From a virus: DNA of 24,806 nucleotides. Below the pieces are notes generated by a model, which made no database searches, was not told the DNA's origin, and was given only the letters and a program-made list of their open reading frames with translations. Location of the stretch: IMG/VR virus record IMGVR_UViG_3300017613_000733, positions 1 to 24,806 of that record; one strand, written 5' to 3'. Made by a program: the position numbers and the translations under genes. Below are positions 1,848 through 23,526 of this stretch, piece by piece (the first letter of the stretch is position 1; every line of letters begins with the position of its first letter).

Positions 1848-4800
1848 TTAATCACCTGCAAAGAAGATCAACTTATCCTCTGGGTGTAATAGTCCTTCTA
1901 TGTGATGATATACAGGAACTAATTTAGTAGTCCTCTTGTATAGCTTAGTTCTACCCTTATACCAACCACGCTCATATACGTCATTCCACTGCCAGAACTT
2001 AAACCATGTTACTAAGGATTCTATCTGGTTCATTGCGGGAACAGGACTCTGTGCTATCCTAAGCATCTCACTCGTTCCCATGAGTGGAACATAAACAGCA
2101 AGTTCAGTTACTAGTCTATTCACCTGATAAGCTGCCATATTAAGTGCCCAGTTCTCATCATCATCGTCAGCTAGATTAGTAAGTATATGTGCTAATGTAA
2201 TAGCAGCTATAAGATAAGCTGACTCAGACATCATACGCATCATATTAGCCTTTTGATGAGGCTTTAGCTCGCCCCAATGAGCTTTAGCTAAGAATTGTCC
2301 TTTCTTCAAGTCATTGAGCAACTGTCCGATGAAGTGGAGAGTAGTAGTATAGAAACCCTCTGTATGAACTTGCCCCTCAAAGTTATAACGACCCTTTTGA
2401 AAGCGCCTATTAAAACCAGGCTTCATCCATTTACGGAACATAATAGCTAATCGCCCTAGAGCATATCTCTGCATAGCAGCTCTATCCCTTTGGTTATAGA
2501 TACCGTGGAGCCTCTTGTTAACAAAGTTCTGCTTACGAACATACTCATTAAAGTCTCTTTCAATGAATAGCTGGCCATCTCTTTCACCACCTGCATAACG
2601 TAATTCTTTCTTTATCACAAGTTTATTACCAACTACTTCATGAGCTTCATATAAGTTCATCACATTACCCTGCTCATCCTTTACCTTAATAGTGTTAGCT
2701 ATAGCTAAAGATGTTCTAAGCTGCATTTGATGTTCACCAGCATGGTTAATAAAGAATAGTGCACTAAGGTTAAATAATTTACCTGCCCTAGTCTTACGAG
2801 TAGTATCGATCTCTCTAAGATCTGAGCTAAAAGATTGCATAGTATCAGCCTTCTCAGCCCATAGAGTCATCTTATTCTTTTGATCACGTAAGCCAACTTC
2901 ACCAAGTACTCCAGGTAATTCTGTAGCATAAGTTTTGTCCGCCCATAGTACATCCTTATGATCATAATATTCTCCAGCAATAGCTTCCTGTCTAATGAGT
3001 ATATTACCTAAGATAGGATTCTGTAATCCAGCATATACGTTAAAGGCCAGACCATGGATAGATACAAAGCGTCCTAATGTGTCAATCACTTTAGCTTTAT
3101 CTACCTCAATACCTAAGATAGGTATCGTCCATTTTCCTTCATTTCTCTTAAGCTGACCATAAATTACCATATCATAGTAGTCTGTTAGTCGCTCATAGGC
3201 CTTCCCACCAGCTTTATCAGATCTAGCTACTAAGTTCTCCATACGTTTAGCTGCAGACCCAAGTACTTCACCTACTCCTTTACCAGAGGAATCCATTTCT
3301 CCAATCGTACGCTTGCCAATCATATCTTTACCCATCTCTAACACATCAATGATCATATTCATATCATGATAGTCATGGGCCATAGCTGAAAACATAGACA
3401 TAGTAGCAACTATATCAGTAGATAAGCTCTTCTTATCTTTCACTTCATTAATGTATAGTACAGGTAAGAAGCTAATAGGATTACCTTCCTCATCGGTTAG
3501 TACCTTTTGTTGCTCAAGTTGAGCTCCACGTTCTGCTTCATCTTCCCTTACTCTAAAAGCATCCCCTACTTCCTTTTGTATCTCTTGTACATCCTTAAGT
3601 GTCTTAGCAGACTTTAACCTCTCAACAAGATCCTTACGTATCTGCGGAGCCATAAACTCACGCTGAAACTTACCAGGAAGTAGTGCATCTAATTTATCCT
3701 TCATCTCTCTGATAACATTAAAGAATGTCTCTTGAGCTTCTGTTAGATCTAGTGGCTGACCATACTTCTCTGTACTAGGCTGTGCTAACTCAGTACGGAA
3801 TACTTCCACACCTAAGTAAGTAGTAAACATATTACGCTTTACCCAAGCTTCATACTGTTCAGCTGTTAACTCTTCCTTCTTCTTAGCCATAATCTCTTTA
3901 GCGTCAGGCCTTGCTTCAGAATGCTCACTATACCAACCACCTACATCACTATCGTACTTTCTATCAAGTTCTTCCTTTAATCTCGATAAGAATAAATTAT
4001 CGTCAGCAAAGTTCTCATCTGCCATAGCTAGTTCAGCTTCTTTGACTACATCTAAGTTCTTAGCACCTTTGTACCAAGCAGCTAGTTCGTCTGCATTTAA
4101 GAAATCAAATGGGATCACTCTTCCTGTATTAGGATTAGTAGGTAGACCATACTTCTTTTCCATCTTGTCAAAGAACTCAGCCTTATCCTTATCATACTCA
4201 CCCCAGTTATGATCAGATATTAAGTTGCCTGTAAGACCCCCATCTTCATGACGTTCATATATCCAGTCTACTTCCTGTTCTCCAGAATCCTCAAGAGCTT
4301 TCAAAGCATCCTTAAGTATCTTCTGGTCTTGTATAGACTTTATACGAGCTCCTTCTTTAGTATCAGCCACTGCTTCATCTACCAACTTGAGTACATCATC
4401 AGATGATTCAGCCATAGCATCTAACCAGCGTTCAAAGAATCCTATATCACGCTCAGCAAACTGTAATGACTTAGTTAATTGCTTTTCATCATACTGATCT
4501 CCAGCAAATGGTTGCAAGAACTTAGCAAAGATGGGTACACCCATTTCATAATAGCTAGCTTCAACCCTACCAATACTCTTCTGCATCTCCTCAGCAAATT
4601 CAAGAATACCTTTCTCTACATTAGTGAGTCTACTTAGGTCAGCCATCGAAACATCTATTACTTCTATATTAGCAGCATCCCCTGATGTATATAGTTCTCC
4701 TCGTAACTCTGACGTTAGCATCTCTATAATAGGCTTATAAGCTAATGCATAGGTCTTCAACTCACGAAGTTTACCAGTTATATGACTCATAGAGTACATC

Positions 4801-7295
4801 TCATCATCACCTGCCATAATTTCCCTAGCTTCCTGTATCTCAGCCTCAATAACTTTCATCTCCTTAGCCATAGTCTGTAAGAATTGAATAACTCCTAACT
4901 CACTAGAGTTAGCTTCAAACTTTTTCTGCAGCTCATAATAAAGCTTACGATCAGCGCCTACAAAGTCTTGTTTACCGCGACCTCTATATATACGCATTTT
5001 CTTATTGATCGCCCGTAAGGCAGTTTGTAAGGACTTCTGCATAGGAGACAGATCATCTTCTGATAGATTAAAGAACTTAGTCTCTTTTGTTTTAGCTAGA
5101 GTTTCCATATTCCCTTTCAATTCTCCTGAAAGAATAGATACAGCAGTAGAGCCAAATATCTTCTCTACCTCTGCTTGGAATACCTTCTCATGTAAAGGCT
5201 TAAAGATTGCTAATACTTTATTAACTATCTTGCGTAGAATCTTTACTACAGCTAAGTCACCTTCTTGTTCATACTTCTTAATAATATGTTGTCCAAGTAA
5301 TTTACCAGCAGCTTCCTTCTTAAGTTTATTAATGTCCCCACCATAAGCACTGAAGTAAGTATCATAGTCTTTACCTAAGATCTCAATGTATCTCTCATCG
5401 ATCGCCTTAAGCATCATCTTAATTAAAGGATGTTCATCCCCTAAAGCTTCCATAAAGAAGTGAGAGAACTCTTCAGGTAATGTAGTGATATCTTCTTTAC
5501 CCTTAGCAATACGTACTACCTTATCTAACATATCTGCAACAGATACAGCGTCATAGCCAGTGTGTTCTATTAAGGAATCTAGACTCTCAACACTAACACC
5601 TAACTCAGCCAGTAAAGAAATTAGTCTTTCATTAAGTTGTTTATTAGCAGCTTTCTTAGATTGCTCTGTAAACTGAAATAATTTACCTTGGTTGTTCTCT
5701 GTGATCACATACGTGTAGAGGTCAGCTTGGCCAACCTTTTTAAACTCAATACTGTGAGCAGTACCGTTAATTTGATTGAACTTCTTAAGCCTGGCCAGAG
5801 CATTAACCCTTTGTTGATAGGATACCTCTTTCCTATGTAGACCTAACTGCTTTTTTAAAGGAGCAGGTTTACTAATAGGAGCAGCCTCCTTAGCTAGCTT
5901 CTTAGCTTGGTGTGCTTTAAACCCTGCTATATCTGCTTTAGAACCTGCTATATAAACTTGGTTAGGATTAAATACCACAGTAGCTATATGAGTATCACTA
6001 GTCTTTATATTGATTCCCCCATCTACTGTATTATCTTTCTTACGTGCCTCACTTAAACTATACCTATCATGCCCAGCTGGGTTTTTAATATTCAGTATAG
6101 CATAAATAGTCTCAGTTCTAGTAGCATAATCTCCTTTTTCCTTCCAACTAGAGTTTATACTAAAGGATAAATCTGATTCCAGTGGTTTATTTATTTTAAA
6201 CTCACTATCTAAAATACTCTTTTTGTTAGCCTCGGTTGTAAAATGATACATAAATCCTCTAACCTTGCTCTCAGGGAATATAGTATTAAGATATTCTCTA
6301 TACTCTTTCTCTGTACCTAACTTAAGTAACTCAGGAGTCTCCTGCATAACTTCTTGCACCTCGTTAGTCTTGCCTGGAGAAGCAAACAAGTCCTCAGGTG
6401 GAGCACTTACTTCAGGTACACCTTTAGTTCTGAGACTAGCCTCATCTTCTTTAGATTCGAAAGCTTTGTTATCTTCTAGTATACGTACCCCAATATCCAT
6501 ACCTTGTGCTAAGGCTGACTTACTTATCTTAGGATCTCTACCCAAACCTTTAGTAAACATCCTAGTTAAGATGTCCAAGAATTCATCCCATAAATTAGTG
6601 AATTTCTTTTCCTCAGTAGCTGGTTGCTCTTTAAGGAACTTAATAAGTTTAGGACTAGTAAAGATACCAACCATGAATTCTTCTAGATTAGAAAAAGCAT
6701 ATATACCTTCAGGAGCTATTTCCTTAAAGTGGTTATATAAATCCTGGAGTTCTTTAACATTAGTAGTACTTTGATTAATCATCTCCACAGATATAGAATG
6801 TAGTATCTCATGCAAAGCAGTCTCAGCTACTTCTTCTACATCCTTTTTAGCTACTATATGTATTTCTCTAGTTCCGTGATTATAATTCCCAACAGGAATA
6901 AATCCTCCTGTGGTTATACCCCTAGCTAAAGCAACTTCATCAGACACCCTCATCTTATAAGACTCTGATTCTGGTACAATCTTTACCTTAATTTCATCAT
7001 GAATTAAAGGTAATAATCTACGTGCTAACCTAACAAATCTAGGAGATAAGTTACCCTCCTCGTTATTAGCTAGTTTAACAAGAACTTCTTCTACGGTATA
7101 TTCATTACTGAACTTAATAGGCGTGTCATCAACCTCTGCGGTTAAAGCAGCGTTAGTCACCAGAAAGTATTCTACTTCTTCCATAGGGGGCATGATCGAA
7201 TCATTAGCTATAAAGAATTTATAGGCATCTAATTCACCTAAGCCTTCTACTAATGCTTTCCATTCAGGACTATGTATGTTAGGACAATTAGCCAT
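1848..7295 (-). CDS. Giant virion cargo protein with metallopeptidase-like, ADP-ribosyltransferase-like and hydrophobic C-terminal regions
   Basis: This 1815-aa protein is probably packaged in the virion and ejected into the host. Visible parts in order follow. Residues 100-250 are a zincin-like metallopeptidase with HEILH at 162-166 and a candidate third ligand at E205/E206. Residues about 346-452 have a YHFTT start (H351), an IYAILNIKNP strand, DGG and VVFNPNQVY (442-448), the pattern of ADP-ribosyltransferase-fold domains in phage polyvalent proteins. Residues about 595-670 have LPEEFSHFF (EEFSH 608-612) with E661 downstream, like a zincin that lost its first histidine. Residues about 720-1500 are mostly charged and helical. 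The C-terminal region has FRKWMKPGFNRRF and a hydrophobic segment at 1691-1709, suggesting membrane contact. Its ATG overlaps the stop of the polymerase gene by one base (TAATG), implying termination-reinitiation. ART activity and ejection are inferred; the ART-like domain could instead be a related barnase/EndoU-type nuclease fold. Confidence 0.85.
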   Translation of the reverse strand: MANCPNIHSPEWKALVEGLGELDAYKFFIANDSIMPPMEEVEYFLVTNAALTAEVDDTPIKFSNEYTVEEVLVKLANNEEGNLSPRFVRLARRLLPLIHDEIKVKIVPESESYKMRVSDEVALARGITTGGFIPVGNYNHGTREIHIVAKKDVEEVAETALHEILHSISVEMINQSTTNVKELQDLYNHFKEIAPEGIYAFSNLEEFMVGIFTSPKLIKFLKEQPATEEKKFTNLWDEFLDILTRMFTKGLGRDPKISKSALAQGMDIGVRILEDNKAFESKEDEASLRTKGVPEVSAPPEDLFASPGKTNEVQEVMQETPELLKLGTEKEYREYLNTIFPESKVRGFMYHFTTEANKKSILDSEFKINKPLESDLSFSINSSWKEKGDYATRTETIYAILNIKNPAGHDRYSLSEARKKDNTVDGGINIKTSDTHIATVVFNPNQVYIAGSKADIAGFKAHQAKKLAKEAAPISKPAPLKKQLGLHRKEVSYQQRVNALARLKKFNQINGTAHSIEFKKVGQADLYTYVITENNQGKLFQFTEQSKKAANKQLNERLISLLAELGVSVESLDSLIEHTGYDAVSVADMLDKVVRIAKGKEDITTLPEEFSHFFMEALGDEHPLIKMMLKAIDERYIEILGKDYDTYFSAYGGDINKLKKEAAGKLLGQHIIKKYEQEGDLAVVKILRKIVNKVLAIFKPLHEKVFQAEVEKIFGSTAVSILSGELKGNMETLAKTKETKFFNLSEDDLSPMQKSLQTALRAINKKMRIYRGRGKQDFVGADRKLYYELQKKFEANSSELGVIQFLQTMAKEMKVIEAEIQEAREIMAGDDEMYSMSHITGKLRELKTYALAYKPIIEMLTSELRGELYTSGDAANIEVIDVSMADLSRLTNVEKGILEFAEEMQKSIGRVEASYYEMGVPIFAKFLQPFAGDQYDEKQLTKSLQFAERDIGFFERWLDAMAESSDDVLKLVDEAVADTKEGARIKSIQDQKILKDALKALEDSGEQEVDWIYERHEDGGLTGNLISDHNWGEYDKDKAEFFDKMEKKYGLPTNPNTGRVIPFDFLNADELAAWYKGAKNLDVVKEAELAMADENFADDNLFLSRLKEELDRKYDSDVGGWYSEHSEARPDAKEIMAKKKEELTAEQYEAWVKRNMFTTYLGVEVFRTELAQPSTEKYGQPLDLTEAQETFFNVIREMKDKLDALLPGKFQREFMAPQIRKDLVERLKSAKTLKDVQEIQKEVGDAFRVREDEAERGAQLEQQKVLTDEEGNPISFLPVLYINEVKDKKSLSTDIVATMSMFSAMAHDYHDMNMIIDVLEMGKDMIGKRTIGEMDSSGKGVGEVLGSAAKRMENLVARSDKAGGKAYERLTDYYDMVIYGQLKRNEGKWTIPILGIEVDKAKVIDTLGRFVSIHGLAFNVYAGLQNPILGNILIRQEAIAGEYYDHKDVLWADKTYATELPGVLGEVGLRDQKNKMTLWAEKADTMQSFSSDLREIDTTRKTRAGKLFNLSALFFINHAGEHQMQLRTSLAIANTIKVKDEQGNVMNLYEAHEVVGNKLVIKKELRYAGGERDGQLFIERDFNEYVRKQNFVNKRLHGIYNQRDRAAMQRYALGRLAIMFRKWMKPGFNRRFQKGRYNFEGQVHTEGFYTTTLHFIGQLLNDLKKGQFLAKAHWGELKPHQKANMMRMMSESAYLIAAITLAHILTNLADDDDENWALNMAAYQVNRLVTELAVYVPLMGTSEMLRIAQSPVPAMNQIESLVTWFKFWQWNDVYERGWYKGRTKLYKRTTKLVPVYHHIEGLLHPEDKLIFFAGD

Positions 7296-10200
7296 TACTT
7301 ACACTCCTTTCTACGTTCTTCTGCAACTTCATCAGACATATTATTAAATTTATCAATTACACTATTAAATTCTCCTGGGCTAGCAAAATCACTCCAGTCT
7401 GTCAATCCCTCTCCGAGCTCATGCTCATCAGGTAAAATTGGAGGAGGTGCACCATCAGGTACATTCTCAGGGCCTTGAGGCTGCTGTAATGTAGGACTGT
7501 CTATCATGAGAGAACTCGAAACAGTTACTGATTTACTAATCAGCCCAGTCTTATTAGCATTCAACTCAGTCTCTAAACCAAAGTTATTCTTTAACTCTGT
7601 TTGTAGCCACTCAGCAAATCTAGTAGGCAGCTTAGCTTTATCAGAAGCAAACCCTTTAGGGAATACTATAGGCTTGTTTAAAGCCTTAAGTTCCGCAATC
7701 AATTTTGTGTTGACTTCAGTAAATTCTTTAAAGTCAGCATCAGTATCCTGATAATCTACATTCTCCCTAGTATTATAATCATACTTTTTCTTAGTAACAA
7801 TAGCATATGCATTGCTTAATCCTCTAATAATTGCTGAACCTCCACCCTGTCTATCAGGGAATGCTGTAATACTATGAGTATTCTCAGTAAATACATAAGC
7901 AGTTTCTGGATCAGCTTCAACATTCTTTCTAGTATAATTACCTGAAGTTATGCTAACCTCTATTGTAGGAGCTCCATCAAAAGGTACCTCAGCTTGTGCT
8001 AGTATTTGCTCAGGCACTTCCCCATGAGGAGCAGTAGGCCGAGCTTCATCAAGAAGCTGCTGAGTCTCCTTTAAATCCTGACCAACTTGTACTCTATTTG
8101 CATTAATAACACTCTCAGTACCTTCAAACATTGTGCCATCAATAGGAGCAGTGTACTCTGTTACACGATGAGGAATACCTAACTTACTTACCTTCTCATA
8201 AACACCATCTTCTGTATGCTTAAATAAATACCAGACACCGCTAATATTTGCTTTAACGTAAGGAGCGAAATATGTTATTTCTTCGTACTTTATCTTAAAT
8301 AAACTAGCGTCCTTCACAGTAGTAGGATCTACTAGGAATCCCAGAATAGCTCCCTTTTTATTCCTGATATAGTCACCGCTAATATTACTTAAATCTCTGT
8401 TAACACCTGTAACATACTTATCTTCGTACCAGTGGTTTCTATAGAACTGATCTATGAACATGCCAAAGTCAGTCATATCAACCTCACTATTATTCTCTAG
8501 TACTTCAGTTTTTAAGAAAGTATTGAAGTCACTAAACTGAGTGTAGTAACTAACAGGTATGAGATGCCCAAATGAGAAAGGGTTAAACCCAAAACCATGA
8601 GTATACATCACATACTTAACTAGCTTCTCACCAATTTCTTTCATCTTAGGATCTTTATTTCCTAGTAAACCTTCCCAATGCTGTACTAACATATCCTTAT
8701 GATAAGAAGATAAGCTTCCTGTGTTATCAAACCTCAATGAAGGTATAGGTGATTTATCATCTGATGGAACAATAGCTATCCTTCTAAGGAATTCATCTTC
8801 CTTTAGTCTAGGATTATCACGCATAGCTTTCGTAAACTCTGCAGGAAAGTTATTAATAATATCAGACTTATCTGATGGATCAAACAGTGGAGTAAACTTC
8901 TTAGATAGGTATGATAAGTATTGATAGTTTATAAACTCTATCTCATCAATTCCTATATCCTGATCAATCAAGGATGAGTTCTCCATTATCCGCTTCTTAA
9001 CAGCTTTGAATTCCATATTAAACCATGGGAACATAGCTGATATTCCATCAAATCTACTTTCAGCATGAGCTTTAAGTTCCTCTTCAGTCATAGATTCCCT
9101 CTGTTTCTGAGTTAAATCTGGATCACCATACACAGGTTTATCTAAACCATTTTCATAGAAGGAATCCATAGTAGGATAATCGGATTTAGCTGGGCCCTGC
9201 TTACGTACAGATCTAGTAAACTTACGTCCCTCACCATCTTCAGAGAGTTGTTTTGTTGGGATAATATTCTTTAATCCTTTAACACCTCCAGGAGCACCTT
9301 CATGCTCCATTGCTTTATCGATCTTCTCCATTAGGAACTCAGATCTAGCAAGTGTAGGGCCTAAGCTACCATTAGGACGATCAAACTTCAAGGCACTCAC
9401 TATATCATTAAGTACGGCACCTTTCTTACTATGTCTTTTAAACATTCTAAGTACATTAAGCTGATCCACAAAGTAATCATAATGAGTTTCATACACTTTC
9501 TTTAAAGCATCTTCTCTTTCAGTCTCATCTGTAAGTGCCTTAGCATTAGCTAATTCTTGAGCAACCTTTTTACCAGTAGTAATATTGTTTAACATGGTAT
9601 TAGTGTTCAAGTTAACATGAACCTTTGTGTCACCTCTATTCGTGTACTTACTTATGCCATCTCCAATCTCCTTAGTTAACTCTACTAAAGCTTGTGCTTC
9701 AGCTTTTCTATGTCCACCATAGTTATAGTACCTTCTATTAAGTTCCTTAATTATAGGCTGCGATGTAAAACTAAAGATAGTTGTTTCACTATAACCTAGA
9801 GAGGCTAGTAAAGCAACTGTATCTGCAGTATACAATGACATATTAATAATTGAGGCAATAGGATCTTTAGCATTATCTACAGCAGCAGATAAGAAAGATG
9901 ATATTACCCTGGAAATATAACCCTGCCCATCAATAGTTTTAACACCATTGATCTTAGTAGCTTTATGTCCATCGAACATAATAGCATTATTGAATTCTAC
10001 TTCACTCCACTGCAGCACTGCATGTGCAGTATTATGATTAGCGAATACAGAAATGAGTTCCTTACCAGTCATATTACGAGTAAATTGCTCTACCCAATCC
10101 TGACGTAAGTGAAGGTTAAGAGGCTTCTTAGCTTTAACCTCTTCAGCTAAACTATTGAGTTCATCATCAGTTAAGTTACTAATATCTTCGTATAGATTAC

Positions 10201-13200
10201 CATCTTCCAATAGAGTAATTATATTACCTATCTTCTTAAGGTTATCGAATCCACCTGGATTAATAAACTTATGGAAAGTAGTTTGATGAGTCATGATTGA
10301 CCACATAATATCTTGTAAACCATTAGCTCTTTGTGCCCTAGAACTACCCTCAATATCATCTAAGTCATACTTCTCTTTCTCAATAGTCTGTAATTTATAT
10401 CCAGCATCAGCTTCGAGTAACGCATTAACAGCTTTCTTAATGTTGCGATCTTCTCCTTTTAACTGGCTAAGATTATTATTAAGTACAACACCTAAAGTCC
10501 TATCACTAACATGATTGAAGCCCTTCTTTTTAAGTGCCTCTTTAATAGCAGCTTTGTCTACCACAGTATTGAAGTTGGGTATCATAACAAATAGCTTATC
10601 AATATCAAAGTCAGATCCTGCTATAGTAGTAATCTCAGAAGGTAACATAATAGATGCTCCAGACTCTTGAGGTAGAAACTTAACTACCTTCATAGGTAAT
10701 AAAGAATACTTATCCTCTGTAGGAATACGATAGCCTATCATCTTAAGCATCTCTTGTTGCTCTTTATTTAGTTTCTTAGGATCAAGGAAGCCTTTATCAT
10801 CCAGTAATGGTTGGAAGTATTTTTTACTAGTCCAAGGCATAGCTACTTCAGCATACTCTAAGGCCCCATCTTTCATCTTAAGATTAAGTTCATCAGAGAA
10901 TCCAAAGTTTGTTACCTGTACAAAGGATCCCCCATGAATCTTTTGCTTAGTAATCCTATTCCTAAAGACTGAAGTTACTAAGGCCTCAAGTCTCTTAGAG
11001 TGTAATGGATGATATAGAGGTAATTTAAAGTCACCATCTACTAATTGTAGAGCTTCTTCAAATTGCTCCCCTAAGTTTTGAGAACGAACTTCTTCCAGTA
11101 ATATTTTCTGGATACCTTCCTTAGTTAAGAATTCCTTCCTAACATTATCATAAGCAACCTCAAGGTCTTTACTTATTAACTGATTCCATTTATCCCATAA
11201 AGCACGCTTAGTTAAAGGTTCTTCTATACCACTAATTTTGAACATAGCATCTTCTGGTATATCAGCAAAGATAAGTTTCCTTGTCTGAGTACCAAAGATA
11301 TTCTCATCATCAATATGGTGAGGAGGAGTCTCCTGCTGGAGTCTATAATATCTATTATCTAATGTATGTACAGTGGCCTTACCTAGATTTTTAAAAGGTA
11401 CTTTACCAAATAGACCAGCCTTAACAACTGATTCAAAATGCATAGCATCAATAACTTTACCCGTCTCGTTATTCCCTTCTAGCGTATGTAGAATCTTGGC
11501 CATGGTTGGGGATTGGAAATCCTTATAACCATTCTTAGCATCTTCAGCACTAGGAGTTCTAACTGCACCAGTAGAATCTCTATAAGCAAGCTGTGGAGTT
11601 ACTATGAATTCTGAGTTCTTATGTTGAGTAGGTAGAACTACACCATCAACTTTATGCAATTGATACATAAAAGGCTTCATAGGATTCATGATGACTTCCA
11701 TATCATTTATGGTACCACCACCATCCTTGATTCTCTCAAAGGATTCATTAAGTACATCATTCCATCTACCTAATCCTATCTGAACTTTCCTAAACCTATC
11801 CATAGTAATATAGGACTGGCCATCAGCTACGTTCACATCTTTAGAAAAGAAGAATCTCTTAGTATCAGGATTAATAGCTACAGGCCTTTGCTCGCCTTTT
11901 AGCTCTCTAGTTTCCGTACCAGTTTTGTAACCATAGGAAGCTAGGATACTATACATCTTATCAGAACTAATCTGCTTCGCATCCACACTTACTTGTAAAG
12001 CCTTCTTCAGTTCCCCTAATATCTTAGAAGGAACTTCTACATCATCTACATATATATTATTATAGTCTTCTCCAGCTTCAATTACATTACCTTTAGGATC
12101 TGTATAGGTAGCTGTAGTATTCAAGAATAAACCAGGAGACCATAACTGCTTATTACGTTTTTGGAAATCAGAAGAACTCTTATAGAATGCTTCATCTCCA
12201 GAAGTAAGTTGTGATATCATAATAGATGCGAAGAATGAATCGAAGTAATACTGCTTAAGAAACTCATTCAGATCTTCCTTAGGTACTTCAGTACTTATCT
12301 TTCTATCATCACCTGTGATAGCCCAAGCCTCATCAGCTTTAGTCTTCCACTCGCTATACTTCTCCTCTAACCAAGCTTCGATGTTAGCCATAACAGCTTC
12401 CTTATTCTCTTCTAAGTTTTTCCCTAGAAAGTCTTTATTCAAAGAAGGTAAGTATATGAATTCATTCTTACGCTTATAAGCATCCATGAAAGCTACATCC
12501 TTACTGTTCTTAATCCTATTCATTCTAGTCTGTTCCTGTATAGCTACATTAAAAAGTGCCTTAACAACATCCTTTGTATTATCATTCTTTAGGAACTTAA
12601 CAAATCCCATAACAGGAGCATCTGCAAATATAGGCACTGCATAGAACCCATACTTACCTTTTACGTTGTTATTCAAATATTGGTTTATAGCAACGGCTTC
12701 TACCTGAGCTTCGTTCAGCTTAGTATATTTCTTACCCTTACGCTTGTGTTCCTTATATCCATCTAGGACTACAAACTCAATCTCTTCTCTATTCATAGCA
12801 TTATAATCCTGCTTAGGATCCTTAATTAAATCCTGTAGCCAAAGATTATCCTGATAGAATGGATCAGTGAGTAGATTATCTACCATAGTATTATCTCCCT
12901 TCTTAAGCTGAGCAATCATCTTAGTCATGAAGTTAGGAGGTATATGAGCATACGTCTTCTTGTTATCAATATTAAGGATAGAGGACTCAAATAGTTCTTC
13001 TCTATGTCTATTAATAAGATCAGACATTTCCTTAAGTCTCTTTGTCTCACCAACTGCTAGGTGTGGTAACGTGCCTTTCTGGAGCTTAGATATATAACTA
13101 TCCCTAACCAGGCCGTTCAGATACTCAAACCTTTCATACTTACTAATAAAATTTGGCTCACCTTTCACTCCCTTGTCTACTATAATCTTCTCAAGGTCAG

Positions 13201-16200
13201 TATAAGTTATATCCAATCCCATACGTTCAGTTAATGATAGGTAATCCAGGAAGTCGCCTTCGTCTAGAGCAGACTCTGTACGCTTCTTCTCAGCTAGAGC
13301 TGCAACGAAAGCTTCGAACTTCTGAGAGATATCATCTACCTGCTCGTCACGTATCTCCCCTTTAGAGTTAACTACAAAGTTGTCATGAGGAAGTGGATGC
13401 TCTAATGCATAAGACCAGTTATCTAGAACTATGTTCCTGGAATTTCTACGTGCTATATTAAAGACATTAAATCTACCACTCTCATCTTGAGTTACCATAA
13501 AGTATTTCATATGAGCCTTCATAAAGTCTACAGTAAATTTAGTCTTTAGAAGTGAGTCATTTTCTAAACGCTCAATCAAAGTATTATACTCAGGGTTCGC
13601 AACAGATAGTTCTGCAAGTTTAGCTGATATCTCTTCTGCAGAGTATAGATCAGCTAAGTCACGCTTAAGAGTATTATATATCCTATCAAAATCATAGTAC
13701 ATAGGGAATCCTAAATCATCATAGCGGAACTCAGGCTTGCCAAACTTATCATAAGATTGCTTACCGTTTACAGTCTTGGGTATAGGAACCTGTGATAGAA
13801 CAGTTCTTATCTCTTTAGATAAACTATCCTTACCAGACATCTGCTCAACCTGTACTTGCCAACCTTCAAGTCTAGTTTGTTCTTCCTCCTCAAGCTGTAT
13901 ATCCTCGGGCTGCTCTGCCTGTGGCCCTTGCTCACCCTTAGTAACTAGAGAGTCATTTCTGATCTTAGTTTTAATTCCACGTACAGCTAATTCTCTAGCA
14001 GCTAGTTCTCCTAACTTACCATATTTATTTATAATTTTCTTCTTACCCCTGATAGTAACTTCCGTCTTCTTAACGATGAAAGTATCTATCATAGCTTGAA
14101 TACGCTCAGCAATATAAGGATCATTAGGATTTTCCAACTTAGCCTTTTCACGCTGCTCTACAAGAGTCTGCTCAACTTCTCTATAGAAAAAGTCAATACC
14201 AAATTCCTTAGCTAGATCATGGTAAGAATAATTACTATAATCTTTTTGAGCTTCTGCCAAACCCTCCTTTAAGTCAGCGAGTGAAGTTAGAGGCTTACTA
14301 GCTTGCTTACTCTTAATGAAACTATTCATTGAAGTAATAAGCATATCGTTGATAGTAACAACCCTTCTATGCTGTTCACCAGGAGAATTCATTTCTTTTA
14401 TAAGATACCTAGGCTTCTGTGATTTAAAATTCTTCACATTAGCAGGTATAGGCTTACGGAATTTCTGACTCCAACTATTAGCTAGAATAAAGGTATCCTG
14501 CATACTAGTCCTATTGAATACAACTTGTCTAACGAATGCCCATAGTCCTTTAAAGAACCTATTGATACGTGCACCCCAAGATGTATTCTCCATCTCAGTC
14601 TCTACAAACTTCTTAAACTTTTCAGCCATACGCTCTTCTAGAGCTATCTTCTTAGCTTCTTGTTCGGTAAGCCCTTCTATGGAATCCATAACTTTTTTAA
14701 CCTCAGCAGCCATTAATGGTTTACTACTAGCTTCTTCTGCTAACAGTTTCTTCTGCTGAGCTTCTGATAAGTATAGGTTAAATACAGCGTGGAAAGCTTC
14801 ATGATAAGTAGTTCCTGTAGCAGCATTGTCAGATATATATACAGCAGCATTGTAGAATGTACCCCAAGCTAGTTCCCCACCTTTAAGTACTTCCTTAAGA
14901 TTCTGGAATACATGGAATGGTACGTTAGGGAATCTAGACTTAAACCAAGCCTCTTCCTTCTTACGATCCCATTGTTGCATATCCTCACTAGTCTTAAGGC
15001 TGAACCTTCTACTTGAGTCTGCTTGATTATTATCACGATTAGTGGCATTCTCAGCTTTAGGTGTAGGTTTAGTAGTAGGCTTAACCTCTGGAGTAGTAGG
15101 CTTAGTTTCTACAGGCTCCTGCTGAGGGTCAACAGCTACAACTTCCTCGTCCTTAACTTTAGGAGTAAGAGATTCATCAGTCTTATTAACATCTTCATTA
15201 TCAGACTTATATTCTACAACTGGTTCAGCTACAGCTTTATTCTCAGAAGCTTTTTCATCATGTGGATTATCCTTAGGCACTACAGGAACACTTCCCTTAG
15301 GAGCATAAGGTACCACATCTATCCTACTAGAATGGGTATGCTGGTTAGGATGTAAGTTAGTCCATAACCTACCCTCACTAGATACCATCTCATTATAAGT
15401 TTTTTGATCTCCATACTTAACTGTAGAACGTCTATTAATTTCCTTAGAGGATATCTGTAGAGGTATGCTCTGAAGTAACTTAATCATATCAGTATTAGTT
15501 CTAAGCTCATTCCTCTTAACCTCTAAAGGAGAGTCATTCTTTCTTGTAAAGGTGAAGGTATCAGTCTCCTTATTATATTCGTACTCCAGGTAAGCTACCT
15601 TAGTAGCAGCCTTTTGAACTTTACCAAAGGCTACTGTATTAGAACTTTCTAACTGAGCCATCAACTCTTCGTATAGAGCAGCATTATTAGGCAATCCTTC
15701 TGGCCCAATCACAGGCTCATTATATAATCTGAAAGGTACCCATTCTCCAGCAGAGTTTTGTATTATAAGATATGTTATACCAGCTCTTACTGCAGAAAAT
15801 TTACCAGTGCTCTTAGAAGTTTTCTTAATCACTGTAGTATTAACAGGCATCTTTTTCTGGTTAGGTACATGTAAGGTAAGACCATTAGCTGTCATGATAC
15901 CAATACCTAATAAGAAAGGCTGATCATTAGTTAATACTTGAGTAGGTTTAAGCTTCATCTCCTGAGCTTTTGTTTTCGAGAGAGTCCAGAATCTACCCGC
16001 ATGTATCTTATCTACTTTACCTCCAATAGAGAATCTATGTTCCCCTTTAGTTTTCTTAGTATTAATAGTCTCTGTAAAGATATCATTCCTAAGCTGTTGT
16101 AACTGAGCTTCTTGAGCTGTATCAGTGAACTTAACTTTACCTTTACCATATGCTTGATCCATACGAGGGAGTGTGCCAATAACTTTACCACTCTTCTTAT

Positions 16201-19114
16201 GGACTATACGTATTAATGCATTTCTCTGAAAGATTTCATTATGCATCATATCTTCATGAGACATCTTAAGTACTCTAAGATCCTTGCCATCCTTTTTAAT
16301 TATCTTACCTCCAGCATCCCTAACATATTCAAAGGGCAGCCCCAGGTCATCCATTAGGAAACCTGCAGATTGGCTCTGGTTAAATAATGTAAGGTCTACC
16401 TCATAGTATATCTCATCATCAACTGCAACATTACCAGGCTTATCTAGGAAGTCAAAGTCTACCTTAAAGACATCCCTATTCATAGTATTATCCTGAAGCT
16501 GATGAGTAGTCTTATGAAACTCAAAGAATCTCATTGTTTTGTCCATTAAGAACTTAAATATAGTAGAAGAGAATGCTTTAACAGGCTTCTTTACTTTCTC
16601 CTTAACATCTACAGGATCTAGTTCGCCAGCTTCTGACGAATCCTCAGTAGTACTATCAGGAGTATTAGGAGTAACAAGCTCGATAGGAGCAGGTTTATTT
16701 TCTACTACAGCAGCTTCTTTCTTCTTCTTAGCAGAGCTTTTAGCTTTCTGAGCATAGTACTCATTTATAAGAGATAAAGTCTTTTTGGTCTCAGGGGTAT
16801 TAGTAGGGAGAATACTACTAACGAAATCTGCAAATCCTTGTGCAGAGTTATTCTTATTAGTAAGCAGTTTCATAAGTCCTGCAGGTGTACCCTCCTTCTG
16901 GAGTAGTGCTTCTATCTCGTCCATCTCAGTGGCCAATAAGAATTCTCTACCCTCATACCGATTGCCAATTTGCGCACCAGTTGTCTCTGTAACATTAGGA
17001 GCCTCGGCAGCTTGTTTGTTAAGTGCCTCTGTCTTAGCTTCGTTTACAGTACCTTCAGCTTCAGTACCTTTAACATCATTATCAAACTTGTCCATATTAA
17101 CACCATCAGTAGGGGCCTCTTCATCACCACTACTTTCTATCTTCTCAGTAGTGTCCTTCTTTAGCTTCTCCTTATTACGCTTGATTTGATCCTCAGTATC
17201 TTTACGCTGATATTCCTTATCAGAGAAATTCTTAAAGTCCTCAGCTCGCTGGGTATACTCTCTTGTAGTCTGTATCTTTTCAAACTCAGCACTACCTAAT
17301 GCTTTCACATCAACAGTCCCAGAGACATCCTTATCAGTATTCTTCTCTTCATTAGTACGAGGGTCTTTCTCAAGAATACCATCATTCTTCTTCTTAGTGG
17401 CAGCTATCCTAGCCTCATAAAACTTCTCTTTTATTTTATATAACTCTCTCCTAGACTGCTTGAGATCACCTTTCTCTAAGCGCATCTTAATATACTTTAA
17501 GCTCTTCTCATAACCATCTAGTATAACTTGGTTATCTAATAATTCTCTACCAGTTGCAGATAGTTCGTGTAACAGAGCTTCTGAATCTTTGAGCTTAGTA
17601 ATCTTCTTCTCAATGGACTCTAGTTTTTCACCATAGACATCCTTTAAGAACTTACTCTTAGCAATCTTCTTAGCGTAGTAAGGGTCATTAGTTTTAACTG
17701 CCTTAGTGTATTCATCAGCAGCTCTCTGTGCGTTAGCTATATCAGAATCAAGTATACCATGTTCTTCCTTAAATGCATTCAATTCTTCAATAAGACTTTC
17801 TGTATTACCATTAGCAGCTGCCTCAATAGCCATGTCAGATATTACAGACTGACCTATAAATTCCTGAGCATCTACATCATGGACTACTTCAGCCTCTTCT
17901 CTAACTCCAGCAAAATGAGCTAGTTTGGCCCCACGCTCTTCAATTTCTTGAACTCTACGTTGCTCCTCAGTAAGTATCCCTTTAGAGTTAAGTATAGCAT
18001 CGTTAATCTTCTTACCTGCCGTAGCAAATACTCCGCCACCTAGTGCTCCCATAAATGCTGAAGACCAGAACTCACCCTTATTCATGGCATGTCCCAGACG
18101 TTCAGTAAATGAGGAATCATCTGTTTCCCCAGATGCAAGCTCAGCAACACGTTCAGCTTCTTCGCCTACTACAAATTGAAAACCTTCTTCAATACCTTCA
18201 CTAACCATAGTTGAAGCTACATCATAAGGCTGAGCAAACCTAGCTTCCTTTAATTTATTTTTAAGTCCCTTAGCTTTTAAAGCTTTCTCTACCTTAACAC
18301 TCTTAGGTATCTTCAAGCGATTCAGAGCCAAGTATTGAGGTAAGTCCTGTGCCATCATAGCCCAGTTGGTATTCCAGCTGAACTGTGCACCTTTGGCAGC
18401 ATTCTTTCTAGCTTCCTGCTCATCCATACCTCCCTCAACGAATTCTTCGTACTTGCTTTCAAAGACTTGAGAAGCCTCCATCATGTTCTCCATATACCTA
18501 GATACAGTAGCTTGTCCTAAACCAGTAGTCATCCACTTAGCAGTCTTGCCCATCTTCTGGCTTATGTTCATTGCTTTGCCTAGCATACTAACTCCCTTAA
18601 CAGCACCTGCAGCGGGTATCATAAGACTTAATGTAGAAGCAACTGATGGAGCATTAGACATCCACCATGACCATGAGCCTGGATTAAACTTACCTTGATC
18701 AGCTTCTTTTTGGTATATAGGAGTAGCCTCTTGTGTCCAAGTACGTAAGCCCTTACCTATATCTGATAACCAGTTGCCCCAATCATCTTCAGTCTGGCTG
18801 ACAGTTCCTACTATGTCTTCAACGTCTAGCATATATCCTAAGCCTTCTAGAGTACCTCCAGCAATCTCACCAACTATGGCTTGATTTAATGCATTACCTA
18901 GCTGGGCCATCTTACCCTGTCTATGAGCACGGATATCCCCTACCCTATCAAGATTCTCTAATACAATATTCTTATCGTACTTAGATGTAAGTACATTACC
19001 TAACTGATGTACACCAGGAACAGCATAGTTCTTAGGTACGTCACCAGGCATAAGTTGTTCTTGCGGATTATCTTTCTCGTAATCAGCTATACTAGCATAA
19101 GTCTTCTTTGCCAT
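7295..19114 (-). CDS. Giant crAss-type virion RNA polymerase fused to metallopeptidase-like and membrane-active-like domains
   Basis: This 3939-aa protein should be a single-chain DNA-dependent RNA polymerase of the YonO/crAss group, which is related to cellular beta/beta' subunits, carried in the virion and acting early after ejection. Parts in order: residues 1-370 with hydrophobic segments at 155-178 and 351-367, possibly membrane-active; charged coiled coil about 380-640; acidic or Pro/Thr-rich linkers near 650-730, 790-850 and 1290-1368; a zincin-like metallopeptidase with HEAFH at 1438-1442 and candidate third ligand E1493/E1494. The polymerase core follows: KIHGGSF (H2727), recalling the beta-subunit HGNKG barrel motif; GYRIPTE at 2794-2800, recalling the beta' RxPTLH motif; the metal-binding DFDID at 2835-2839; a helix with SRAQRANG (about 2925-2932); and VDNAKDP at 3079-3085. 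Residues about 3735-3850 form a separate domain around GGGSAIIRG...NAYAIVTKKK. The gene starts two bases after the 486-aa gene and overlaps the next by one base. Polymerase identity is firm; flanking roles are inferred. Confidence 0.95.
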   Translation of the reverse strand: MAKKTYASIADYEKDNPQEQLMPGDVPKNYAVPGVHQLGNVLTSKYDKNIVLENLDRVGDIRAHRQGKMAQLGNALNQAIVGEIAGGTLEGLGYMLDVEDIVGTVSQTEDDWGNWLSDIGKGLRTWTQEATPIYQKEADQGKFNPGSWSWWMSNAPSVASTLSLMIPAAGAVKGVSMLGKAMNISQKMGKTAKWMTTGLGQATVSRYMENMMEASQVFESKYEEFVEGGMDEQEARKNAAKGAQFSWNTNWAMMAQDLPQYLALNRLKIPKSVKVEKALKAKGLKNKLKEARFAQPYDVASTMVSEGIEEGFQFVVGEEAERVAELASGETDDSSFTERLGHAMNKGEFWSSAFMGALGGGVFATAGKKINDAILNSKGILTEEQRRVQEIEERGAKLAHFAGVREEAEVVHDVDAQEFIGQSVISDMAIEAAANGNTESLIEELNAFKEEHGILDSDIANAQRAADEYTKAVKTNDPYYAKKIAKSKFLKDVYGEKLESIEKKITKLKDSEALLHELSATGRELLDNQVILDGYEKSLKYIKMRLEKGDLKQSRRELYKIKEKFYEARIAATKKKNDGILEKDPRTNEEKNTDKDVSGTVDVKALGSAEFEKIQTTREYTQRAEDFKNFSDKEYQRKDTEDQIKRNKEKLKKDTTEKIESSGDEEAPTDGVNMDKFDNDVKGTEAEGTVNEAKTEALNKQAAEAPNVTETTGAQIGNRYEGREFLLATEMDEIEALLQKEGTPAGLMKLLTNKNNSAQGFADFVSSILPTNTPETKKTLSLINEYYAQKAKSSAKKKKEAAVVENKPAPIELVTPNTPDSTTEDSSEAGELDPVDVKEKVKKPVKAFSSTIFKFLMDKTMRFFEFHKTTHQLQDNTMNRDVFKVDFDFLDKPGNVAVDDEIYYEVDLTLFNQSQSAGFLMDDLGLPFEYVRDAGGKIIKKDGKDLRVLKMSHEDMMHNEIFQRNALIRIVHKKSGKVIGTLPRMDQAYGKGKVKFTDTAQEAQLQQLRNDIFTETINTKKTKGEHRFSIGGKVDKIHAGRFWTLSKTKAQEMKLKPTQVLTNDQPFLLGIGIMTANGLTLHVPNQKKMPVNTTVIKKTSKSTGKFSAVRAGITYLIIQNSAGEWVPFRLYNEPVIGPEGLPNNAALYEELMAQLESSNTVAFGKVQKAATKVAYLEYEYNKETDTFTFTRKNDSPLEVKRNELRTNTDMIKLLQSIPLQISSKEINRRSTVKYGDQKTYNEMVSSEGRLWTNLHPNQHTHSSRIDVVPYAPKGSVPVVPKDNPHDEKASENKAVAEPVVEYKSDNEDVNKTDESLTPKVKDEEVVAVDPQQEPVETKPTTPEVKPTTKPTPKAENATNRDNNQADSSRRFSLKTSEDMQQWDRKKEEAWFKSRFPNVPFHVFQNLKEVLKGGELAWGTFYNAAVYISDNAATGTTYHEAFHAVFNLYLSEAQQKKLLAEEASSKPLMAAEVKKVMDSIEGLTEQEAKKIALEERMAEKFKKFVETEMENTSWGARINRFFKGLWAFVRQVVFNRTSMQDTFILANSWSQKFRKPIPANVKNFKSQKPRYLIKEMNSPGEQHRRVVTINDMLITSMNSFIKSKQASKPLTSLADLKEGLAEAQKDYSNYSYHDLAKEFGIDFFYREVEQTLVEQREKAKLENPNDPYIAERIQAMIDTFIVKKTEVTIRGKKKIINKYGKLGELAARELAVRGIKTKIRNDSLVTKGEQGPQAEQPEDIQLEEEEQTRLEGWQVQVEQMSGKDSLSKEIRTVLSQVPIPKTVNGKQSYDKFGKPEFRYDDLGFPMYYDFDRIYNTLKRDLADLYSAEEISAKLAELSVANPEYNTLIERLENDSLLKTKFTVDFMKAHMKYFMVTQDESGRFNVFNIARRNSRNIVLDNWSYALEHPLPHDNFVVNSKGEIRDEQVDDISQKFEAFVAALAEKKRTESALDEGDFLDYLSLTERMGLDITYTDLEKIIVDKGVKGEPNFISKYERFEYLNGLVRDSYISKLQKGTLPHLAVGETKRLKEMSDLINRHREELFESSILNIDNKKTYAHIPPNFMTKMIAQLKKGDNTMVDNLLTDPFYQDNLWLQDLIKDPKQDYNAMNREEIEFVVLDGYKEHKRKGKKYTKLNEAQVEAVAINQYLNNNVKGKYGFYAVPIFADAPVMGFVKFLKNDNTKDVVKALFNVAIQEQTRMNRIKNSKDVAFMDAYKRKNEFIYLPSLNKDFLGKNLEENKEAVMANIEAWLEEKYSEWKTKADEAWAITGDDRKISTEVPKEDLNEFLKQYYFDSFFASIMISQLTSGDEAFYKSSSDFQKRNKQLWSPGLFLNTTATYTDPKGNVIEAGEDYNNIYVDDVEVPSKILGELKKALQVSVDAKQISSDKMYSILASYGYKTGTETRELKGEQRPVAINPDTKRFFFSKDVNVADGQSYITMDRFRKVQIGLGRWNDVLNESFERIKDGGGTINDMEVIMNPMKPFMYQLHKVDGVVLPTQHKNSEFIVTPQLAYRDSTGAVRTPSAEDAKNGYKDFQSPTMAKILHTLEGNNETGKVIDAMHFESVVKAGLFGKVPFKNLGKATVHTLDNRYYRLQQETPPHHIDDENIFGTQTRKLIFADIPEDAMFKISGIEEPLTKRALWDKWNQLISKDLEVAYDNVRKEFLTKEGIQKILLEEVRSQNLGEQFEEALQLVDGDFKLPLYHPLHSKRLEALVTSVFRNRITKQKIHGGSFVQVTNFGFSDELNLKMKDGALEYAEVAMPWTSKKYFQPLLDDKGFLDPKKLNKEQQEMLKMIGYRIPTEDKYSLLPMKVVKFLPQESGASIMLPSEITTIAGSDFDIDKLFVMIPNFNTVVDKAAIKEALKKKGFNHVSDRTLGVVLNNNLSQLKGEDRNIKKAVNALLEADAGYKLQTIEKEKYDLDDIEGSSRAQRANGLQDIMWSIMTHQTTFHKFINPGGFDNLKKIGNIITLLEDGNLYEDISNLTDDELNSLAEEVKAKKPLNLHLRQDWVEQFTRNMTGKELISVFANHNTAHAVLQWSEVEFNNAIMFDGHKATKINGVKTIDGQGYISRVISSFLSAAVDNAKDPIASIINMSLYTADTVALLASLGYSETTIFSFTSQPIIKELNRRYYNYGGHRKAEAQALVELTKEIGDGISKYTNRGDTKVHVNLNTNTMLNNITTGKKVAQELANAKALTDETEREDALKKVYETHYDYFVDQLNVLRMFKRHSKKGAVLNDIVSALKFDRPNGSLGPTLARSEFLMEKIDKAMEHEGAPGGVKGLKNIIPTKQLSEDGEGRKFTRSVRKQGPAKSDYPTMDSFYENGLDKPVYGDPDLTQKQRESMTEEELKAHAESRFDGISAMFPWFNMEFKAVKKRIMENSSLIDQDIGIDEIEFINYQYLSYLSKKFTPLFDPSDKSDIINNFPAEFTKAMRDNPRLKEDEFLRRIAIVPSDDKSPIPSLRFDNTGSLSSYHKDMLVQHWEGLLGNKDPKMKEIGEKLVKYVMYTHGFGFNPFSFGHLIPVSYYTQFSDFNTFLKTEVLENNSEVDMTDFGMFIDQFYRNHWYEDKYVTGVNRDLSNISGDYIRNKKGAILGFLVDPTTVKDASLFKIKYEEITYFAPYVKANISGVWYLFKHTEDGVYEKVSKLGIPHRVTEYTAPIDGTMFEGTESVINANRVQVGQDLKETQQLLDEARPTAPHGEVPEQILAQAEVPFDGAPTIEVSITSGNYTRKNVEADPETAYVFTENTHSITAFPDRQGGGSAIIRGLSNAYAIVTKKKYDYNTRENVDYQDTDADFKEFTEVNTKLIAELKALNKPIVFPKGFASDKAKLPTRFAEWLQTELKNNFGLETELNANKTGLISKSVTVSSSLMIDSPTLQQPQGPENVPDGAPPPILPDEHELGEGLTDWSDFASPGEFNSVIDKFNNMSDEVAEERRKECK

Positions 19115-19116
19115 AA

Positions 19117-20577
19117 TTATAATACTTTCATAAATTTTTCAGGAGTTAATATAGTAGTGTTGCCTTCCCCATCCTTATACTCTACTTCATATCCCCATAA
19201 ACCATCTATATTGATAACAGGAATACTACGTGCTTTTCTACCACCGCTTAAATTTCTAACAGGAGCTTCTCCCGTTAGTCTGTTGTAAGAGGGTAAAATA
19301 TCCATATACAAGTTGTTCATTAACCCTTGCTTAGTATCTTTCATCCCAGGATCGCCTACAGCATATCTAAGAGTCTTACCACCCACTTTAGCTGTAGCAT
19401 ATAAAGCTCCATCTAAATAAGGATTATTTTGCATCTGACCTACTACTTGGAAAGTTTTCCAGAACTCATCAACTTTTTCATCATCCTTAAAGCCCTCTAG
19501 TATGTCAACAAGTTGGCCCTGACCATTTCCTCCTAATTGGAAGACAGGTACATCCCCTAAGGTAGATTTAACTAATTTAGTTTTGTTACTCATATCACTA
19601 GCCTTTTCCCATCTACGATATCCAAAACTTTGATCTTCTAAACCTTTATCAGCATAGTCTATACGTCTTTCCAGATCCTTTTGATCACCTATAGCATCGC
19701 CTTTCATAGGCCTTATCCTACCTTTAATATTAGCATACTCTTCGTCACTAGTACCGCCTACCCAGCCTTGGCCAAAGAGACCACTGTCACGAGTAGTACC
19801 GAAATCAAATTCTTCTGAAGCAGTGTTATATGTACCAGCAGCGAAGTCGTCAGATGTACCACCACTACCGTCAGCAGGATCTGGCATTCTAAACTTATTT
19901 CTTACTACATCCTCTATCACTCTCATCTCTGAATTAAAATATGCATCACCAGCTGCACGAGCATAAGCAAGTTGCCTAGCCATAGGTAGATTATTTTGAA
20001 CATATTCCTGAGCCATCTGATGAACTTCATTAAAGGTTTTGCCCTTAGTAGCACTACTATTAACCCAGGTATTTAATTCCTTACCTATGTCAACGTAGTC
20101 AGCTATTGGAGTTAGTGGATCCTGCATAGCTAGGCTTTCCATATAAGCAGGAAGCTTACCTTCAGTCACACGTTTATTAATGCCCTCTATATTTTTCTGA
20201 GCAGTCGTATACCTAGTTTGTATCTGACCTAACTCTCCAGACTGTAGATTAGTTTCTAATTCTCTACGCATTCCTTTCATATATGGAATTAACTGTGAGT
20301 AGTCACCCTTAGCACTAGCTATCTTATTTTTTATTGCATCGCCATAGGTCTTCTGGATTTGCTGTAGTCTCTCCTTGTCTGGGCCATAAGCCCTAACTGA
20401 GTTAACTAACCTATCACTAGCATCTGATAATGCTTCCCCTTGGAGGAAGTCTTGATGCTCTCTCTGCTTTGTCTGAGAGTACATGTTCAGCTGTTGTGCT
20501 TGTAAGCCAGCTAAAAAGTTCTGATTGATTGGGGTCAGTCTCTGACTAACACCTTGAGTAAATGGAGTTATAGCCAT
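19117..20577 (-). CDS. Putative virion cargo protein, mostly helical
   Basis: The 486-aa product is not recognisable by name. Residues about 15-210 are predominantly helical, rich in Gln, Lys, Glu and Ala, and could form a coiled coil. A Gly/Ser/Asp-rich linker follows near 235-265. The C-terminal half is more mixed and ends in an alpha/beta segment (IPVINIDGLWGYEVEY). There is no signal peptide or clear membrane segment. Its ATG is two bases after the stop of the preceding gene, and its stop is two bases before the start of the giant polymerase, so it belongs to the same tightly coupled unit. In crAss-like phages, genes between the muzzle and the RNA polymerase encode proteins packaged in the capsid or tail. 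A cargo or ejection role is therefore inferred from position and composition. Confidence 0.75.
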   Translation of the reverse strand: MAITPFTQGVSQRLTPINQNFLAGLQAQQLNMYSQTKQREHQDFLQGEALSDASDRLVNSVRAYGPDKERLQQIQKTYGDAIKNKIASAKGDYSQLIPYMKGMRRELETNLQSGELGQIQTRYTTAQKNIEGINKRVTEGKLPAYMESLAMQDPLTPIADYVDIGKELNTWVNSSATKGKTFNEVHQMAQEYVQNNLPMARQLAYARAAGDAYFNSEMRVIEDVVRNKFRMPDPADGSGGTSDDFAAGTYNTASEEFDFGTTRDSGLFGQGWVGGTSDEEYANIKGRIRPMKGDAIGDQKDLERRIDYADKGLEDQSFGYRRWEKASDMSNKTKLVKSTLGDVPVFQLGGNGQGQLVDILEGFKDDEKVDEFWKTFQVVGQMQNNPYLDGALYATAKVGGKTLRYAVGDPGMKDTKQGLMNNLYMDILPSYNRLTGEAPVRNLSGGRKARSIPVINIDGLWGYEVEYKDGEGNTTILTPEKFMKVL

Positions 20578-22523: not shown

Positions 22524-23526
22524 CGTATTCAATATTATCTGAGAATATATAATCACCAAACTTGACTTCATTGTTGTCAACCATGGCTATATCTCCTAGT
22601 TTAATACTATCAGTGGTACCATTACCACCTTTAATTTCTGAAATACCTTTGTTTGTAGAGCCTAGTGACCCACCATAAGCTCTATTGAGCATAGTAGGAT
22701 CTAGGTTAGCATTATATTGTTGAGCAGCTGTTTGTTGGGTAGCCATATCTAATTGACCTTGCTGGGCTTTAGCAGCTTTGTCCTTACCAACTTGCCCTGC
22801 TATACTTCCAACACCACTAGCCATAAGAGGTACACCAGCAATAGCCCCGCCAGGAACTATACTGAGAGCAGCTCCAGCAGCAGTCTGTAAAATGCCTGGG
22901 ATATATCCCCCAAACTTAAACCCTGGTATATCAGTATTACCTACATTAGGTCTTTTATCTTTAGGTTTAGGATTACCTGGCCCCCATTGAATATCAACAG
23001 GGGAACCACCCTCATTACTGGAACCTAAATGCTTACCTAAATTCCTAGCTTGCCCATATATACTAGTACCTTGATCGGGTATAGACTTTAAGTAACCAGC
23101 TAGTGAAGGATCAGCAACTCTATTATTAAAATTATACTGATCAGATACTATTGTATCATTACCATGTATATTAATATTAGCCTGACCTAAGGTAGTCTTA
23201 AGGTTATATGCTGGATCTGTAGCCTTCTTTAATATTTCAGAATTCTTAGCAGAACCCCCCACATCACCGTATTGTGTTCCTGTGGCATAATCAGCATACT
23301 CTATAGTATTCTTACCTTTAGCTAAATTCTTTTTGGTAATATCCTTAAGAATCTTCATTTCTTCTGGGGTCAGGCTCTTCTCCGTAATAGGAGAGTCTCC
23401 ACCTGCTATATCGTAAAGTAGTTGGTTAGCTGCCAAAGGAACCCCTAGATTCTTATGCCTCATATCCCTACTAACTCCACCAAGAGTTCTACTCTTTCGC
23501 TTTCTCTTAGTCTTAGTTTCTGCCAT
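22516..23526 (-). CDS. Putative virion cargo or ejection protein with glycine-zipper-like segment
   Basis: This 336-aa product is first after the mapped promoter. It begins with a very basic stretch (KTKRKRKSR). Residues about 30-180 form a globular domain with DQYNFNN at 129-135 and YGQARNLG at 157-164, which I cannot name. Residues 205-246 are Gly/Ala-rich and hydrophobic (FKFGGYIPGILQTAAGAA, then IVPGGAIAGVPLMASGVGS), a glycine-zipper-like pattern that could insert in a membrane. A Gln/Ala-rich helix at 248-272 and a C-terminal beta-rich tail (GDIAMVDNNEVKFGDYIFSD) follow. The ATG is 20 bases downstream of the -7 promoter element, giving a leader of only about 10-15 nt without a Shine-Dalgarno sequence. 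The gene overlaps the next by 8 bases. A cargo or membrane-penetration role is inferred. Confidence 0.75.
   Translation of the reverse strand: MAETKTKRKRKSRTLGGVSRDMRHKNLGVPLAANQLLYDIAGGDSPITEKSLTPEEMKILKDITKKNLAKGKNTIEYADYATGTQYGDVGGSAKNSEILKKATDPAYNLKTTLGQANINIHGNDTIVSDQYNFNNRVADPSLAGYLKSIPDQGTSIYGQARNLGKHLGSSNEGGSPVDIQWGPGNPKPKDKRPNVGNTDIPGFKFGGYIPGILQTAAGAALSIVPGGAIAGVPLMASGVGSIAGQVGKDKAAKAQQGQLDMATQQTAAQQYNANLDPTMLNRAYGGSLGSTNKGISEIKGGNGTTDSIKLGDIAMVDNNEVKFGDYIFSDNIEYDG

Follow-up and report, generated by a model that had tools for sequence, protein, structure and literature searches.

A probable crassvirus virion RNA polymerase joined in one chain to its RNAP-associated protein and a zincin-like domain

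Crassvirus RNA polymerase (RNAP) genes reaching ~6000 aa have been described as a hallmark (PMC10136315). Five proteins of crAss001, namely gp45, gp46, gp47, gp49 and gp50, have been found in its virions (PMC10172136), and every gene of phi14:2 from gp71 to gp65 is annotated from virion MS/MS. The N4 virion RNA polymerase (vRNAP) is built of a membrane-associated helical N-domain, a tether of ~100 residues, RNAP and an HExxH domain (PMC12633501); it is always fused to a zincin and is packaged unprocessed (PMC5512222). A proposal of 2017 had already invoked zincin-RNAP fusions among injected polyvalent proteins, as well as zincin processing of injected multidomain 'polyvalent' phage proteins, N4 vRNAP included (PMC5512222), and p-crAssphage gp45 already carries the annotation 'RNAP associated protein fused to zincin protease'. 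The suggestion in the sequence-only reading of this locus that a metallopeptidase-bearing chain is processed is therefore not new.

The window analyzed here, the whole of an IMG/VR record of 24,806 bases, is a contig representing a fragment of a genome. It contains a giant ORF of 3939 aa (7295-19114), part of a compact series of genes that follows a crassvirus muzzle gene. The frame is open throughout, as the earlier reading had it, and lies on the minus strand, which that reading left unsaid. The features of the block, with residue numbers referring to the 3939-aa chain unless another protein is named, are as follows.

23619..24806, minus strand, crassvirus muzzle protein, C-terminal part, running off the contig (Pfam crAss_MUZ, E=6e-59)
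22516-23526, 336-aa protein, N-terminal half matching the end of PHROG 7348 ('endolysin', 2564 positions; E=1.5e-30)
20580..22580, minus strand, 666-aa protein in cargo-protein position (gene order; weak match to a cr118_1 neighbor, E=0.01)
19117..20577, minus strand, 486-aa protein in cargo-protein position beside the polymerase, the position of phi14:2 gp68 (gene order only)
7295..19114, minus strand, 3939-aa chain, gp47-like part fused to gp50-like virion RNA polymerase (ORF and homology)
17996..18985, minus strand, N-terminal helical domain common to crassvirus gp47/gp45-type proteins, residues 44-373 (profile, model and Foldseek)
18578..18646, minus strand, moderately hydrophobic conserved segment, residues 157-179 (Kyte-Doolittle (KD) 1.29; family mean 1.1)
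14975..15274, minus strand, acidic, Pro/Thr-rich linker immediately upstream of the zincin, residues 1281-1380 (composition)
14423..14974, minus strand, zincin (metallopeptidase-like) domain, residues 1381-1564 (profile in 36 proteins)
14789..14803, minus strand, HEAFH motif, residues 1438-1442 (distal LEERMAE at 1492-1498)
8096..14071, minus strand, RNA polymerase part homologous to crAss001 gp50, residues 1682-3673 (blast; PDB 6VR4 match at 2424-3126)
10598..10612, minus strand, catalytic DFDID, residues 2835-2839 (three Asp invariant in nine aligned crassvirus polymerases)
7619..7942, minus strand, C-terminal accessory domain DUF7831, residues 3725-3832 (Pfam PF25176, E=2.7e-9, above cut-off)
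1848..7295, minus strand, 1815-aa homologue of crAss001 gp49, an RNAP-associated virion protein (tblastn, E=3e-119)
6483..6890, minus strand, second zincin (HEILH), residues 136-271 of the gp49 homologue, near its N-terminus (profile)

The 486-aa gene directly precedes the 3939-aa ORF, which meets the 1815-aa ORF at base 7295, and the resulting order of muzzle, small cargo-position genes, gp47-like part, RNAP and gp49 is that of phi14:2 gp71-gp65. The 336-aa protein is probably a cargo-position protein rather than an endolysin. A gene for an ATP-dependent DNA ligase (443-1495, plus strand; Pfam PF01068, E=2.8e-12) is convergent with the virion block.

By blast, residues 44-373 and 1323-1528 of the chain match gp47-type proteins and residues 1682-3673 match gp50. 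Because its N-terminal and zincin parts are gp47-like and its polymerase part gp50-like, the chain is, by homology, gp47 and gp50 in one frame, with gp49 as the next gene. It is probably a crassvirus virion RNA polymerase joined to the RNAP-associated protein, which has a gene of its own in crAss001 (gp47) and phi14:2 (gp67). This is a known kind of protein; the lineage member is new, and the same fusion occurs in many relatives. Searches of the 3939-aa chain against PHROGs and NCBIfam gave no match, and in the Pfam scan DUF7831 was the sole family above cut-off. DUF7831 is a mobile accessory domain, present in five polymerase chains of the set, at the chain end or, in L053, upstream of the catalytic core. 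The middle region (401-1370) searched as a single query had no relatives at E<=1e-4, and local blast alignments extend into it to residue 719 in L023 and 744 in L042.

The polymerase assignment made in the sequence-only reading holds. Residues 2286-3673 match crAss001 gp50, for which E=1e-117 was obtained, and phmmer matched one solved structure, chain A of 6VR4 (the phi14:2 virion RNA polymerase), with E=1e-26, so that together with the muzzle gene in the same block the protein can be assigned to the Crassvirales virion-type RNA polymerases. A match of profile A1 to 6VR4 was left out of the evidence because A1 contains phi14:2 gp66 itself. DFDID and HEAFH were found where that reading placed them, 1397 residues apart, and its RxPT-like and HGGS-like motifs correspond to RIPT at 2796 and HGGS at 2727. 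A chain of this length and make-up would be expected to contain ~0.09 HExxH and 0.003 DFDID motifs by chance, and both HEAFH and DFDID fall within conserved homologous domains. Invariant in the nine aligned crassvirus polymerases are the Asp triad of DFDID, the R and P of RIPT and one Gly of the GG motif. The locus thus combines catalytic-core homology, the DxDxD triad with barrel motifs and the muzzle/cargo/gp49 gene block, all features of the phi14:2 gp66 type, and two double-psi beta-barrels are expected in the polymerase fold from the 6VR4 match. The protein does not look like an N4-type (T7-type single-subunit) polymerase: its core matches the two-barrel enzyme of 6VR4, and Pfam hits down to a significance of E=0.1 included no T7-type RNAP family.

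Three crassviruses have a polymerase gene that is broken at or beside the catalytic DxDxD codons, the breaks corresponding to window residues 2835-2838 (L016:17939-18834, bajarodcaudo virus 1; L022:18993-19834, cr116_1; L009:22461-22752, cr108_1). An annotated endonuclease lies between the polymerase halves in bajarodcaudo virus 1 and another small ORF in cr116_1. The active-site codons look like a hotspot for intron insertion; those of the window's polymerase gene are uninterrupted.

When IMG/VR was scanned with the protein by itself no kin of the chain came up, and an alignment scan yielded 80 loci. In the polymerase tree, where zincin-bearing chains are labeled as fused, the window groups with L023, L025 and L042, all of them fused (SH-aLRT 98), and crassvirus polymerases thereby gain an environmental lineage. 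Misassembly or pseudogene status is an exceedingly unlikely explanation of the fused ORF. In its favor is that the contig is a 24.8-kb IMG/VR fragment; against it, the same architecture is found on two independent contigs (3600 and 3524 aa) that group with the window and L042, and the frame is open over 11.8 kb with intact catalytic residues. The same fusion is seen within the Suoliviridae and in the window's nearest IMG/VR kin. Among the 47 genomes scored, which are those with a recognizable N-terminal domain, this domain is in the polymerase chain in 26 and in a separate gene in 21. On the polymerase-core tree the RNAP-associated protein and the polymerase have changed between one chain and separate genes about eight times, a count using a stricter N-domain label. 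The position of the gene break varies: it follows the zincin in crAss001 and Dulem virus 41, whereas in L039 it precedes the zincin.

The N-terminal domain belongs to a family spanning fused and unfused proteins alike, its profile matching 48 stretches that include crAss001 gp47, p-crAssphage gp45, phi14:2 gp67 and many environmental phages. An AlphaFold2 model of the domain is all helix (mean pLDDT 75.5). Its best Foldseek matches in BFVD are crassvirus proteins, followed more weakly by 'large polyvalent protein associated' phage proteins; against the PDB it had no match with E<=0.001. A membrane-active-like head with two hydrophobic segments in the first 370 residues had been proposed. The domain is conserved and predicted to be all-helical. 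Only one N-terminal segment passes a KD threshold of 1.2 over 19 residues (157-179, maximum 1.29); the second (349-367) peaks at 1.07, so that the count of two holds only in a loose sense. Family mean hydropathy is ~1.1 at both 80-98 and 157-175, and the polymerase part has two more hydrophobic windows, at 2156-2175 (1.43) and 3085-3104 (1.42). The head being only borderline hydrophobic, the membrane reading of it is weak.

A profile seeded with residues 1360-1640 converged on a domain of ~182 positions in 36 proteins, most with HE[AGS][FYW]H, a preceding context as in GTxYHEAFH and a distal (L)EExxAE. The metallopeptidase of the earlier reading can thus be recognized as a conserved zincin-like domain of ~180 aa, predicted from HEAFH and the distal Glu. 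An AlphaFold2 model of it (mean pLDDT 74) left the strands unmodeled and had no PDB match with E<=0.001 by Foldseek; VIA-align placed it among unrelated helical proteins (best Z 4.5), and against PDB sequences the best hit of the zincin profile, Pro-Pro endopeptidase, was not significant (E=0.35). The second type of zincin, that of the window's gp49 homologue and also of p-crAssphage gp45, is related to the first (hhalign profile match, E=5e-7). HExxH has been lost within a retained zincin domain at two separate places on the tree: WEAFR replaces HEAFH in the fused chains L050, L056, L057, L070 and L074, and HEGFE replaces HExxH in L096. Judged by its motif, a zincin with WEAFR is dead.

The sequence-only reading regarded the chain as a polyprotein, and one account of this kind has the zincin cutting the linkers during maturation or after ejection, which would release the polymerase from a membrane-anchored head. 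We consider this unlikely. D/E/P/T/K-rich linkers are indeed present near residues 581-700, 781-840 and 1281-1380. As processing sites they fare poorly, however, since all lie upstream of the zincin and none between the zincin and the polymerase, and these variable linkers show no conserved cut site. The zincin adjoins a linker and the polymerase in most fused chains, the window retains the catalytic HExxH and the distal Glu, and the zincin-bearing polyvalent protein DdrB of P1 is processed before packaging (PMC5512222); N4 vRNAP, on the other hand, carries HExxH and is packaged uncut (PMC5512222). A processing model would also predict an association of zincin with fusion, so the association observed counts against an uncut chain. 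A HEAFH-type zincin is found in 20/26 fused versus 3/21 split genomes (Fisher p=2.5e-5, kinship ignored), and a zincin of either profiled kind in 26/26 versus 13/21 (p=6e-4, kinship ignored). Once kinship is controlled the association is not significant: three of seven pairs were informative, all three for and none against, and four showed no difference (p=0.25). The halves are moreover separate genes in 21/47 genomes, and the break can come before or after the zincin. HExxH is missing from every large ORF of the locus in the fused L056, L057, L070 and L074, and likewise from the L050 fragment, which makes at least five fused chains without it. Cutting by the HEAFH-type zincin is consequently not a general need of fused chains. 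With the parts encoded separately in many relatives and several fused chains devoid of HExxH, the term polyprotein was not upheld, and a chain left uncut is more likely than obligatory cutting.

A narrower proposal, which we regard as quite improbable, is that the HEAFH zincin is a vRNAP maturation protease which, in fused-chain phages, cuts the polymerase loose from the N-terminal part once the chain has been ejected, lineages with split genes or another means of release losing the zincin or its active site. If so, fusion state and zincin state would evolve together. Alternatively, the zincin may be an injected effector cleaving a host protein and merely riding with the polymerase, one of the options proposed for polyvalent proteins (PMC5512222), which we entertain as a tentative possibility. 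Consistent with an effector, the window's gene block has two different zincins, and relatives carry the second type in any of three positions (within gp49, or terminating either the RNAP chain or gp47/gp45), as would be expected for a mobile module. The HEAFH type, however, keeps one place, 1343-1721 residues before DFDID, and the domain persists with dead motifs in one clade. This fixed place and persistence suggest a structural role for the zincin as well.

By analogy with crAss001, phi14:2 and N4, the polymerase chain is very probably packed in the particle and injected with the phage DNA. Virion presence and activity in early transcription have been shown for relatives of the crAss001 and phi14:2 kind. 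The chain would share the capsid with the gp49 homologue and be ejected, partly unfolded, through the tail behind small channel-forming cargo proteins, the polymerase then refolding in the cytoplasm and transcribing early genes. The N-terminal domain would most likely serve in packaging, ejection and placement at the inner membrane, the linkers may act as flexible hinges, and the zincin would most likely be an accessory module carried in the particle and kept because it has its own target or a structural use. Natural variants in fusion, and zincins without HExxH, make the role of this domain testable and provide material for testing the 2017 zincin-processing proposal.

Compared with the described systems, phi14:2 has the same gene order (gp67, gp66 and gp65), a solved polymerase structure (gp66, PDB 6VR4) and a second-type zincin (HEIMH) in its gp65-type protein, like the gp49 homologue of the window. 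Its gp67 and gp66 are separate genes and gp67 has no HExxH, whereas the window has a fused chain with HEAFH. In crAss001 (Steigviridae), gp50, gp47 and gp49 have domains homologous to those of the window, and the HEAFH zincin of the window's chain recurs as the last part of gp47. Where the window has a fusion, crAss001 has two genes, gp47 and gp50, that point in opposite directions, and gp50 aligns only up to window residue 3673, short of the DUF7831 region. The crAss001 proteins are known to be present in virions. Five giant CDSs of the Suoliviridae (cr4_1, 4491 aa; cr118_1, 4946 aa; cr53_1, 4645 aa; cr109_1, 4328 aa; cr130_1, 5801 aa; TAG read as sense in all but cr118_1) have zincin and RNAP in one chain like the window, with HEA[FW]H 1431-1587 residues ahead of DFDID; cr53_1 and cr109_1 have a recognizable N-domain too. 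They are larger than the window's chain and their polymerase is only distantly related. The closest mechanistic parallel is N4 virion RNA polymerase gp50 (Schitoviridae), one ejected multidomain chain in which the linkers are seen as tethers. It differs in having a T7-type single-subunit RNAP and an HExxH domain after the polymerase, and we found no homology between it and the window in this analysis. In P23-45 gp96 the RNAP is fused to a tail tape measure protein and the polymerase is at the N-terminus, unlike in the window; its 5002-aa chain resembles the window's in combining a virion RNAP with metallopeptidase and membrane domains.
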